Positions 22,520 to 30,408 of a stretch of 64,000 nt of DNA are shown piece after piece. Origin of the DNA: Fimbriimonadales bacterium. GTDB lineage: Bacteria; Armatimonadota; Fimbriimonadia; Fimbriimonadales; GBS-DC. The position numbers were made by a program, and so were the translations under genes. The stretch is from assembly GCA_025998675.1 (NCBI GenBank), contig AP024673.1, forward strand, positions 2,364,562 through 2,428,561. The letters are read 5' to 3'. How positions within the stretch are numbered: position 1 is the first letter of the stretch; the number at the start of each line of letters is the position of its first letter. The notes beneath the pieces were generated by a model that was not told the DNA's origin, made no database searches, and was given only the letters and a program-made list of their open reading frames with translations.

Positions 22520-22994
22520 GTTTGTCGCGGACAGCCCTGCGGCGACCGAAGCGTTTGCGGCGCGCTGGGCGCAGACGCTCGCGCCCGATACCGTCATCCT
22601 GTTGCATGGCGGTCTGGGCGCGGGCAAAACCACCTTCGTGCGCGGGCTGGCGCGCGGACTGGGCATCGCCGGACCCGTCCGCAGCCCGACCTTCACGCTG
22701 ATTCACGAATACACCATCCAGCAGCCGCCGCGCCTGCAGGGGCTGCCGTTTTTTCATGTCGACCTCTATCGCCTTGAGACCGCCGCCCAGTTGCACACGC
22801 TGGGGCTAGAGGAGGCGCTGGAGCGCGGCGGGATTATCGCCATTGAGTGGGCGGAGCGGTTGGAGCAGGGCGGCGTGCGCCTGCCGGTAAGCCATCTCTA
22901 CGAAGTTCGCCTCACAGCCGCGGGCGACTCTCTGCGGCGGATACGCATCGCCCCCCTGCAAAAATCGCCTGCCGCCGCCGATAGTACCCCCTGA
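22500..22994 (+). CDS. tsaE: tRNA threonylcarbamoyladenosine biosynthesis ATPase TsaE
   Basis: The 164-residue protein has the P-loop LLHGGLGAGKTTFVRGLARG, the switch-like SPTFTLIHEY and the downstream motifs FHVDLYRL and IIAIEWAERL characteristic of TsaE/YjeE. With TsaB, TsaC and TsaD it makes the t6A modification of ANN-decoding tRNAs. It overlaps hspR by 20 nt and the next gene by 1 nt, so it is part of the dnaK operon. The partner tsa genes are not in the window. Confidence 0.93.
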   Translation: MTTTSTEFVADSPAATEAFAARWAQTLAPDTVILLHGGLGAGKTTFVRGLARGLGIAGPVRSPTFTLIHEYTIQQPPRLQGLPFFHVDLYRLETAAQLHTLGLEEALERGGIIAIEWAERLEQGGVRLPVSHLYEVRLTAAGDSLRRIRIAPLQKSPAAADSTP

Positions 22995-23473
22995 TGGCGC
23001 AGGTACGCAACTGCTGGGATGCAGGCAAGGCTCTGGAAGACGCCTTCACGGGCGCGGCGACTCCCGACCCCGAACGCGATGTGCTGACGCAGCACCTCTG
23101 GGAAGCGATTCCGCCAGAGACTCTGCGCAGCCTCACGCCAGAGCAGTACCATTCGCTCAAACAGGCGTTCCAGACCGCGCCCCGCAAGCACACGCTCGAC
23201 CTGCGCGGCGTCATTCCGCTTTACTTCACGCAGTTTTACTTTGTGTTCCTATTTGGCGTCGACCGTCGGCGCGAGACGCGCGAGGTGGTGTACGACCGCC
23301 GTCAAGCCGTGCGCGAGGGCACAGCCAGACTTATCGGCGGCGTCGCGCTTGGGGTGTTTCTGACGGTGCTGGGGCTGAGCGCGTTTGCGCTCTGGTATCT
23401 GCTGAAGTGTCTCGTGGGGACGGACATTCTGCCGGGAGTCAGCCTGAGCCGATATTTGCGCCAGATACTTTAG
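22994..23473 (+). CDS. hypothetical membrane protein
   Basis: This 159-residue protein was not recognised. A soluble N-terminal half (to about residue 65) contains TPEQYHSLKQAF. One hydrophobic patch (IPLYFTQFYFVFLFGVD) is followed by a charged loop rich in Arg/Glu. A long C-terminal membrane region (IGGVALGVFLTVLGLSAFAL) comes next and ends in a short basic tail. It is coupled to tsaE by TGATG overlap and ends at a MITE-like element whose insertion TA plus first base form its TAG stop. Confidence 0.7.
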   Translation: MAQVRNCWDAGKALEDAFTGAATPDPERDVLTQHLWEAIPPETLRSLTPEQYHSLKQAFQTAPRKHTLDLRGVIPLYFTQFYFVFLFGVDRRRETREVVYDRRQAVREGTARLIGGVALGVFLTVLGLSAFALWYLLKCLVGTDILPGVSLSRYLRQIL

Positions 23474-23624: not shown

Positions 23625-23711
23625 CAAATATATTTGAGACTTTAGAAGCCCCTAATACCCCGTAAAATTACTGGAATTTCACAGAATTCGCCTTAATCGC
23701 CCCTTAACCTC

Positions 23712-23741
23712 TTGACAAATTGGACGGCGATGTGCTATAAT
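23712..23741 (+). promoter_or_regulatory. strong promoter of the structured RNA
   Basis: TTGACA (23712-23717) and TATAAT (23736-23741) are consensus boxes with an 18-nt spacer. The 85 bp upstream (23625-23711) are unusually A/T-rich for this genome and could act as an UP element. This is the best consensus promoter in the window. Confidence 0.8.
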
Positions 23742-23747
23742 ATCCAT

Positions 23748-24067
23748 GCTGTTGGGGAGACCCAACGGTGTAGCCCGAGTGCAGAGGGAATGCCCCTGCC
23801 GCTGGGAACCTCGCGCAGTCTGAATGCGTTGTTTGCGCAAGCAGCGGCGAGAGACGTGCGAGGAGTTATGCGAGAGCCTGCGCCCCAGCAAAGGCAATCG
23901 CAAGCAGCGGATAGGAACGCTCGGAACCAGAGCGCTCACTCGAGGAGTGATAGGGCGCCTTCGGATCGGCGGCAACGTCGGTTAAGGCTCCGAAGCTTCG
24001 AAGCGACGCTCTGTGGGAAGGCGGCTCCGAAACGGACTTTCCCCGAGCGCTCGGGCGTTTTGTTTTT
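23748..24067 (+). ncRNA. highly folded non-coding RNA of about 320 nt, family not identified
   Basis: Between a consensus promoter and an intrinsic terminator there is no plausible reading frame but many helices. They include GTTGGG-GAGA-CCCAAC with a GNRA loop (23751-23766), a GCTGGG...CCCAGC closing helix around CCTCGC...GCGAGG, CGCTC...GAGCG, CACTC-GAG-GAGTG, and CCCGA-GCGC-TCGGG as terminator. I looked for hallmark motifs of RNase P, tmRNA, SRP RNA, 6S RNA and cobalamin, c-di-GMP, SAM, TPP and lysine riboswitches and found no convincing match. It could be a stand-alone regulatory RNA or a long leader of the PilB-like gene that starts 44 nt after the terminator. Confidence 0.65.
24042..24067 (+). 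terminator. intrinsic terminator of the structured RNA
   Basis: CCCGA-GCGC-TCGGG is followed by CGTTTTGTTTTT, the only classic U-tract terminator recognised in the window. Confidence 0.85.
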
Positions 24068-24110
24068 CCTCGCCCTGCGAAAATCCCTCCCCGATATGGA
24101 ATAACCCCCC

Positions 24111-25850
24111 TTGACGATGGGGTACGGAGGCGCAACGGGCTTCGTGGGAATCGCCGACCTGTTCCTGCAGATGGGGCTTATCACCGAGCAGCAGCTCCAT
24201 GACGCGCTCCAGAAACAGCAGGAAGGCGTGCCGCTGCCGCTGGAACACTTGCTGGTGCAGCTCGGACACATCACCGAGAAAGATCGCGTGCGCGTGATGG
24301 GGCAGCACTGGGGCGTGCCGTTCGTGGACCTGGTGGACACGCCGCCCGACCCGCAACTGGCGTCGATGCTCACCCCCGAAATGGCGAAACGCCATCGCGC
24401 CGTGCCCGTCGCCAGAGAGAATGGACGCCTGCTGGTGGCGATGGCAGACCCGCTGGACATCTTCGCCATCGACGAAATCCGCCAGCACACCAAACACGAA
24501 ATCGAAGCCGCCATCGCCACCGAAGAGGACATTCAAAACGCCCTCAAACGCCTGTACCGTACCGACAGCGCCGTCTCAGATACCGTCAAGGAGCTGATGC
24601 GCGATCTCGGCGAGAGCGAGATGCTCCTGCACGAGAACGCGGAGGAGGAGCTTTCGGCGGAGGAGCTGCGTGAAATCGCCGACGACGCGCCCGTGGTGCG
24701 CCTGGCGAACATGATTATCACGCAGGCGATTACCGACGGCGCGAGCGACATCCATATCGAGCCGACGCGCGAGTGCGTCAAGGTGCGCTACCGAATCGAT
24801 GGCGTGATGATCGATTCGATGGTGCTGCCCAAGCGGGTGCAGGCGTCGCTCACCTCGCGCTTCAAAATCCTCGCCGATATGGACATCGCCGAGAAGCGCA
24901 TCCCGCAGGACAACCGCATCAGCGCGACCATCGACGGGCGCGAGTACGACTTCCGCGTCTCCACCCTGCCGTGCATCTATGGCGAGAAGATTGTGATGCG
25001 CGTGCTGGACAAATCCAGCGTGCGGGTCGGTCTCGATAAGCTTGGCTTCCTGCCCGATACGCTCGCCCTGCTGGAGGAGGTCATCAGCCGCTCGTATGGG
25101 ATTATCCTCGTGACGGGACCCACAGGGTCGGGCAAGTCCACCACCCTCTACTCCATCCTCTCGAAGCTGAACACGGGCTTGGTCAACATCATCACGGCGG
25201 AAGACCCTGTGGAATACGAACTGCCGGGCATCAATCAGGTGCAGGTGAACCCGAAGGCGGGGCTGACCTTCGCCAGCGCGTTGCGGTCGATGCTGCGTCA
25301 GGACCCCGATATTATCATGGTGGGCGAGATGCGCGACCGTGAGACGGCGACAATCGCGATTGAAGCCGCGCTCACGGGGCACCTGGTGCTGTCGACTCTG
25401 CACACGAACGATTCCTCGAGTGCGCCGCCCCGCTTGACCGAGATGGGCGTCGAGCCGTTTATGATTGCCTCGTCGCTGATTGCGGTGCTGGCGCAGCGAC
25501 TCGTGCGCACGCTCTGCCCCCGTTGCAAGGAGCCGTACCAGCCCACCGAGTCGGAGTTCAGTCGCTACGGGTTCACGCCGCCGCCCAACCTGCACGAGAG
25601 TACCATTTACCGCGCAAAAGGCTGTGAAAACTGCAAAAACACAGGCTACAAAGGGCGCACGGGCATCCACGAGCTGCTGGTGATGTCGGACCCCGTGCGC
25701 GATTTAATCCTCAAGCATGCGGCGGCGTATGCCATCCAGAAGGTCGCCGTCGAGCATGGCTTGCGCCTGCTCAAAGAGGACGCCCTGCAGAAAGTGCTGC
25801 TGGGACGCACGAGCCTCGAAGAGATTGTGCGCGTCATCTACAGCGGATAG
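24111..25850 (+). CDS. PilB/GspE-family secretion or pilus assembly ATPase
   Basis: The 579-residue protein has an N-terminal MshEN-like domain (FLQMGLITEQQLHDALQKQQ; AMADPLDIFAIDEIRQHT), a linker, and a GspE motor. The motor shows GASDIHIEPT, Walker A GPTGSGKSTTLYSIL, Asp box EDPVEYELPG, Walker B DIIMVGEMRDRETA and the His box LVLSTLHTNDSSSAPPRL. A tetracysteine zinc site (CPRC...CENC) follows. It powers type IV pilus extension or type II secretion at the inner membrane. The start may be the TTG at 24111 or the ATG at 24117; neither has a Shine-Dalgarno. It lies directly behind the structured RNA and ahead of an HDOD gene; no pilT, pilC or pilin operon is adjacent. Confidence 0.93.
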   Translation: MTMGYGGATGFVGIADLFLQMGLITEQQLHDALQKQQEGVPLPLEHLLVQLGHITEKDRVRVMGQHWGVPFVDLVDTPPDPQLASMLTPEMAKRHRAVPVARENGRLLVAMADPLDIFAIDEIRQHTKHEIEAAIATEEDIQNALKRLYRTDSAVSDTVKELMRDLGESEMLLHENAEEELSAEELREIADDAPVVRLANMIITQAITDGASDIHIEPTRECVKVRYRIDGVMIDSMVLPKRVQASLTSRFKILADMDIAEKRIPQDNRISATIDGREYDFRVSTLPCIYGEKIVMRVLDKSSVRVGLDKLGFLPDTLALLEEVISRSYGIILVTGPTGSGKSTTLYSILSKLNTGLVNIITAEDPVEYELPGINQVQVNPKAGLTFASALRSMLRQDPDIIMVGEMRDRETATIAIEAALTGHLVLSTLHTNDSSSAPPRLTEMGVEPFMIASSLIAVLAQRLVRTLCPRCKEPYQPTESEFSRYGFTPPPNLHESTIYRAKGCENCKNTGYKGRTGIHELLVMSDPVRDLILKHAAAYAIQKVAVEHGLRLLKEDALQKVLLGRTSLEEIVRVIYSG

Positions 25851-30331: not shown

Positions 30332-30408
30332 ACTGTTTAAATATCCTGCCCTATCGAAGATTCCTGCCCCTTTGTGGAATAACGCTCTGTGGAGGCGATT
30401 CGGGCGGC

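Follow-up and report, generated by a model that had tools for sequence, protein, structure and literature searches.

Classes of large structured RNA are few in bacteria, and their functions have often been unexpected. One of them, OLE (ornate, large, extremophilic) RNA (RF01071), is about 600 nt long, occurs in another phylum than the RNA considered here, and has a function that is not fully known. The raiA motif, or ModT RNA, whose function was long unknown, is described in Bacillota and other phyla (PMC11706538). Here we report on an intergenic locus in a stretch of 64,000 nucleotides (the window) from a Fimbriimonadales bacterium of the phylum Armatimonadota (assembly GCA_025998675.1, contig AP024673.1, positions 2,364,562 to 2,428,561, forward strand). 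It was found that this locus, upstream of a pilB gene, has the properties of a gene that stands alone, occurs in single copy and encodes a structured noncoding RNA of about 315 nt. This RNA probably acts in trans; we put the probability of this reading at roughly 0.7.

Like OLE RNA, the window RNA is structured, stands alone, is confined to one bacterial lineage and has conserved loops, but it is about half as long and has no Rfam similarity. With the raiA motif it shares the organization as a stand-alone structured RNA gene; it differs in having no Rfam match, and the two were compared by description. As in these two systems, the gene stands alone and its structured RNA has covarying helices, whereas homology in sequence and structure to a named family was not found. 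The RNA makes up a real new family, of the OLE and raiA kind as a stand-alone structured gene and related to no family tested.

Promoter, termination and coding potential

The preliminary description of the region had reported a consensus TTGACA-N18-TATAAT promoter, a GNRA-capped first hairpin, the lack of any plausible reading frame and a classic U-tract terminator. The first three held. The sigma-70 promoter agreed with the consensus at 12/12 positions at the window locus, while shuffles of the region contained on average 0.3 promoter-like sites, and it was kept in the aligned homologs, with a -10 variant TATATT in one of 13. The loop of the first hairpin (P0) is GAGA in the window genome and GAAA or GCAA in most homologs. 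The transcript would run from about 23748 to about 24062. As for the terminator, the U-tract is real, but the local hairpin CCCGA-GCGC-TCGGG is unique to the window's genome; the relatives instead pair its 3' strand with 23773-23782. Because the relatives keep this pairing (P1) and not the local hairpin, it is P1, the long-range helix closing the structure, that forms the conserved stem of the terminator.

Mechanical open reading frames (ORFs) are present at the locus, including one of 130 aa that starts from a TTG within the -35 box. These might suggest a small-protein gene, and the helices might be a chance fold in a GC-rich spacer. However, no reading frame was preserved across homologs, and single-base indels that separate even close relatives break the frames. 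A small ORF from AGGAGUNAUG was rejected, as it had no AUG in G013 or G014 and an early stop in G016. The predicted fold of 23747-24064 had an energy of -154.7 kcal/mol (z = -5.1), and none of 100 shuffles folded as well; for the full span first proposed, 23712-24110, the z value was -3.1. Since the two-sided base-pair changes described below also lie far above what the shuffled, slid and tree-aware controls give, both of these explanations are extremely unlikely.

Conserved secondary structure and covariation

A structure of 86 pairs was built by hand from the relative G007. It comprises the 5' GNRA-capped hairpin, about 12 helices overall, the closing helix and the U-tract; P1 encloses P2/P2b, the P3-P6 branch and the domain of P7, which contains P8-P11 (Table 1). 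The P1 strands GCCCGAGUGC/GCGCUCGGGC of the window become GCCCAAGUGC/GCACUUGGGC in G013, and P3 is CUGUCG/CGGCAG in most relatives. The most constant parts are the apical loop GCCCCA, the segments GGAGUNAU and GAUAGGAAC, and the P10 hairpin; the motif GCCCCAG (23882-23888) occurs in 13/13 aligned members as well as in G014 and G015. The U-G and G-U pairs of P10 are retained in every aligned member and would be mismatches if read on the opposite strand, indicating that the RNA is encoded on the + strand. Two pairings were given up because relatives break them: the first P3 pairing proposed by RNAalifold, which was replaced, and a GGAG/CUCC helix, which was dropped.

Table 1. Positions of the promoter, RNA gene and structural elements in the window
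Feature	Position	Strand	Sequence, composition or remark	Basis
Pho-box-like direct repeats	23692..23710	+	CTTAATCG-ccc-CTTAACCT; 11-bp period, two 8-bp units, 3-bp linker; just 5' of -35	
Sigma-70 promoter	23712..23741	+	TTGACA-N18-TGCTATAAT	kept in 13/13 aligned homologs
-35 box	23712-23717	+	TTGACA	sequence
-10 box	23736-23741	+	TATAAT with extended -10 TG, after 18-nt spacer	sequence
Structured noncoding RNA gene (predicted)	23748..24062	+	about 315 nt, ends approximate	covariation, fold, covariance-model matches
P0	23748..23769	+	5' hairpin, GNRA tetraloop	99% of cells paired; two-sided changes
P1, 5' strand	23773..23782	+	GCCCGAGUGC	100% of cells paired; A-U/G-C, G-C/A-U and U-G/U-A changes
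P3, 5' strand	23799..23804	+	CCGCUG; partner 23905-23910, CAGCGG	compensatory changes at three pairs
P4	23809..23863	+	23809-23814 with 23858-23863; encloses variable domain	alignment, pair counts
P4b	23833-23845	+	tetraloop hairpin inside P4	GNRA in most members, UUCG in G013
P5/P6 hairpin	23870..23901	+	apical loop GCCCCA	alignment, pair counts
P7 domain	23929..24012	+	23929-23934 with 24007-24012; encloses P8, P9, P10, P11	alignment, pair counts
P10 hairpin	23963..23984	+	GAUCGGCG-GCAA-CGUCGGUU; most conserved element	100% paired
P1, 3' strand	24047..24056	+	GCGCUCGGGC; U-tract immediately after	pairs with 23773-23782
3' end	24053..24067	+	GGGC and U-tract GUUUUGUUUUU	U-rich tract after P1 in homologs with sequence continuing

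The check for covariation that had been proposed at the outset came out in favour of the structure. The main count was made on a plain MAFFT alignment (A3) of 13 sequences that was not fitted to the structure. In this alignment 94.7% of cells pair, and two-sided changes were observed in 31 of the 86 pairs, compared with 10.3 ± 2.3 in the shuffled control and 6-15 with slid partners; 0 of 500 shuffles reached any of the measures. Because shuffles ignore relatedness, a tree-aware null was written in which each branch retains its substitutions and each column its rate, and under it 7.8 two-sided pairs were expected (maximum 17 in 500). Within the genus alone, 20 two-sided pairs were observed vs 6.3 under the tree-aware null, and again 0 of 500 reached the observed value. 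The model-fitted alignment with G014 added, which leans towards the structure, gave 96.0% pairing and 46 two-sided pairs vs 14.0 in shuffles.

Distribution of the RNA

By DNA search of 61 genomes, full-length homologs with the promoter were found in 10 other genomes of the window's genus and in G016 and G013, which belong to two other genera of the family. A covariance model (R1) was run against 113 genomes from the order and then against the phylum (291 genomes). It recovered the training members and also G014 (E = 1.3e-43), a third other genus of the family that had been left out of training; it matched G020, from another family, over the full length (E = 4e-4), and the P10 of G015. G015 and G020 are more divergent members, whose sequences fold better than shuffles and which share with G014 the order of elements: promoter or -10, GNRA hairpin, P1, P10, P1' and U-tract. 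Where the RNA was found, there was one match per genome.

G018, from a third family, has the promoter, P10 and a 5' hairpin of the GNRA type but no clear P1; this element (L078, 1470-1858, minus strand) is possibly a distant member. Within its core lie three small hairpins, also of the GNRA type (GGGAGUAAUCUCG and others like it), and its fold has z = -5.3. A further element was observed in G014 (L028 on C1, 1484-1560), where a second promoter with a near-same spacer (TTGACAAATGCCCTCTCGATGTGCTATAAT) is followed by a P0-like GTGTTGGGGAGAAAC; it is possibly a truncated copy of the 5' end of the RNA before another gene.

Over the 291 genomes of the phylum, R1 added nothing convincing beyond the order, and the exact P10 pattern occurred in 14 Fimbriimonadales genomes. 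Matches to this pattern in G114, G140 and G264, of other families, were rejected, as they lie inside long ORFs and a reversed control pattern gave four; short BLAST or model matches in G018:C41, G038, G037, G058, G031, G028, G119 and G281 were chance-like and mostly coding. A pattern of two conserved motifs matched 12 contigs in the GTDB contig set, all of them Fimbriimonadales or Armatimonadetes/Armatimonadota metagenome-assembled genomes and apparently the genomes already found in the DNA search. There was no match to it outside the phylum in that set and none in viral contigs, and the window DNA had no match in plasmids. No copy was detected in G002 (69% complete), G011 (85% complete) or G017.

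Gene context and the possibility of a leader

It had been suggested that the element might be a terminating leader controlling pilus genes. In the window, pilB (start TTG 24111 or ATG 24117) indeed lies 3' of the RNA gene, and it follows the RNA in eight loci of the genus including that of the window, in G008 with one Uma2 gene inserted between. Elsewhere the next gene encodes an ABC exporter (G012), a glycosyltransferase (GT2, G001), baeRF (G016), a metallo-beta-lactamase (G013), pstB (TIGR00972, 412 bits; G014), a 330-aa protein without assigned family (G015) or a GFO/IDH oxidoreductase (G020). The gene context thus differs in at least eight lineages, and because of these differences a pilus-specific leader is unlikely; in this specific form the suggestion found no support.

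A more general 5' leader, a riboswitch or attenuator, would use P1 and the U-tract as a terminator controlled by a ligand or protein, with the downstream gene expressed by read-through. The window RNA resembles a terminating riboswitch leader in being structured and in having a terminator and a co-oriented gene downstream. The U-tract follows P1 immediately, which would couple folding to termination. Moreover, the downstream gene is co-oriented in 10/10 independent contexts and starts within about 150 nt in nine of them; in G018 it is co-oriented and about 490 nt away. However, the downstream genes are functionally unrelated, and yet the RNA occurs as a single copy per genome, whereas riboswitch classes usually recur before like kinds of genes. 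No switch pairing was found either: no alternative pairing able to release P1 is conserved among the relatives, and the local hairpin of the window's genome has no counterpart in them. A general role as a leaky terminator or leader, with read-through, may apply, since all examined downstream genes are co-oriented and most are close, but we consider a leader rather improbable.

The trans-acting RNA gene remains our preferred reading, and several points weigh against it. The first is the co-orientation just described; a co-oriented nearby gene is not required of a pure trans-acting RNA gene. Secondly, the large families f3 and f5 of the same order have no detectable copy, implying that even the order as a whole does not share the function of the RNA. 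Thirdly, a per-pair, R-scape-like tree-aware test gave just 2-3 pairs at E<0.05. This small number can be explained by the little power per pair that 13-14 sequences give, and the whole-structure tree-aware null was used for this reason. Finally, covariation is evidence of a selected structure and silent on its role, and the transcript is a predicted one, the case for the gene being drawn from sequence.

Three observations were made on the surroundings. The PilB/GspE-type ATPase (24111-25850) has an N-terminal MshEN domain, which binds cyclic di-GMP. The 159-aa protein encoded upstream of the RNA (22994-23473) has no Pfam match. A motif TGGAATAAC occurs in the window before pilB (24093-24108) and before a MotA-like gene (30375-30386), with 3 window matches at ≤1 mismatch vs 0.45 expected; it also lies before a MotA-like gene in L015 (G002, ~868-885).

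Comparison with known RNA families

By core motifs the region had been matched neither to RNase P, tmRNA, SRP or 6S RNA nor to the common riboswitches, and the Rfam 15 search agreed with this. No match was found at gathering thresholds in the whole window, the best E with permissive filters in the RNA region was 0.94, and the homolog loci L012, L013, L065-L067 and L078 were likewise negative. A diverged housekeeping RNA would fit the size range, the single copy and the strong promoter. Nevertheless, RNase P RNA (RF00010, G000:C1:1115047-1115385, E=6.6e-83), transfer-messenger RNA (tmRNA; RF00023, G000:C1:2715499-2715847, E=4e-71) and signal recognition particle (SRP) RNA (RF00169, G000:C1:1159884-1159982, 72 bits) are each encoded elsewhere in the genome above the cut-offs, which refutes these three identities. 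The 6S RNA model had no match in the window's genome, but a separate 6S RNA coexists with the RNA in G001, G007, G013 and G015 (three of the four 6S matches lie below the family cut-off). The window RNA is similar to 6S RNA (RF00013) in that a long-range helix closes its 5' and 3' ends; its core is multi-branched, whereas 6S RNA is one long hairpin with a bubble. As none of the members tested resembled an Rfam family, a housekeeping RNA has next to no probability. Among the papers that the literature searches listed, no description of the RNA was found, and a term search of PMC11109978 returned no mention of Armatimonadota.

The preliminary description had alternatively proposed an abundant new noncoding RNA. 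The conserved promoter, the covariation and the lack of an Rfam family agree with a new noncoding RNA; its abundance would follow from the promoter only.

Pho-box-like repeats upstream of the promoter

Direct repeats of the form CTTAA-N6-CTTAA were observed at equal distance from the promoter in 8/11 members of the genus and in G016, while the sequence farther upstream is less conserved. In cyanobacteria the Pho box bound by PhoB/SphR consists of CTTAACCT repeats in tandem, set 3 bp apart (PMC1906773), and the tandem boxes of most of the genus and of G016, also with a 3-bp linker, resemble this consensus. No such repeats were found at the fetched RNase P, tmRNA, 6S and SRP loci. In G014 the RNA lies directly before pstB with CTTAACCT-ctt-CTTAACAC between; this Pho-box-like pair (CTTAACCTCTTCTTAACAC) is located at ~1880-1910 of L065, directly 3' of the RNA. 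The repeats and the pstB neighbour are a hint of a phosphate link and may serve as a lead, and the repeats might have a regulatory role.

As a refinement of the trans-acting RNA gene and not as an exclusive rival to it, one may suppose that a PhoB-type regulator acts through the CTTAA-N6-CTTAACC repeats under phosphate starvation, and that the RNA has a trans-acting role in phosphate metabolism. Such a role seems doubtful, because G013, G014, G015 and G020 have degenerate repeats or none before the promoter, the proximity to pstB is a single case, and the -35 box is already consensus. PhoB-activated promoters are usually without a consensus -35.

Proposed function and implications

It is proposed that a strong promoter of its own would drive transcription of the RNA, and that the closing helix P1 and the U-tract would end it. 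In the product, the 5' GNRA hairpin would precede a closed domain of several helices, of which the GCCCCA loop and P10, a hairpin capped by GNAA, are the most conserved parts. By analogy with the OLE and raiA RNAs, it would most likely work in trans, either as the RNA component of a ribonucleoprotein with a putative protein partner or as a compact RNA with its GNRA loops docked in tertiary contacts. In the window's genus a PhoB-type regulator might control it. Tentatively, the RNA could even represent an undescribed large class that is catalytic or forms a ribonucleoprotein, possibly phosphate-responsive and specific to a branch of the Fimbriimonadales within the Armatimonadota.

The RNA is absent from Rfam and comes from a poorly studied phylum. 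Its 86-pair, covariation-supported structure is a sufficient basis for the design of direct probing, deletion and pull-down experiments, and the 5' GNRA hairpin, P10 and the GCCCCA loop offer concrete targets for mutation.
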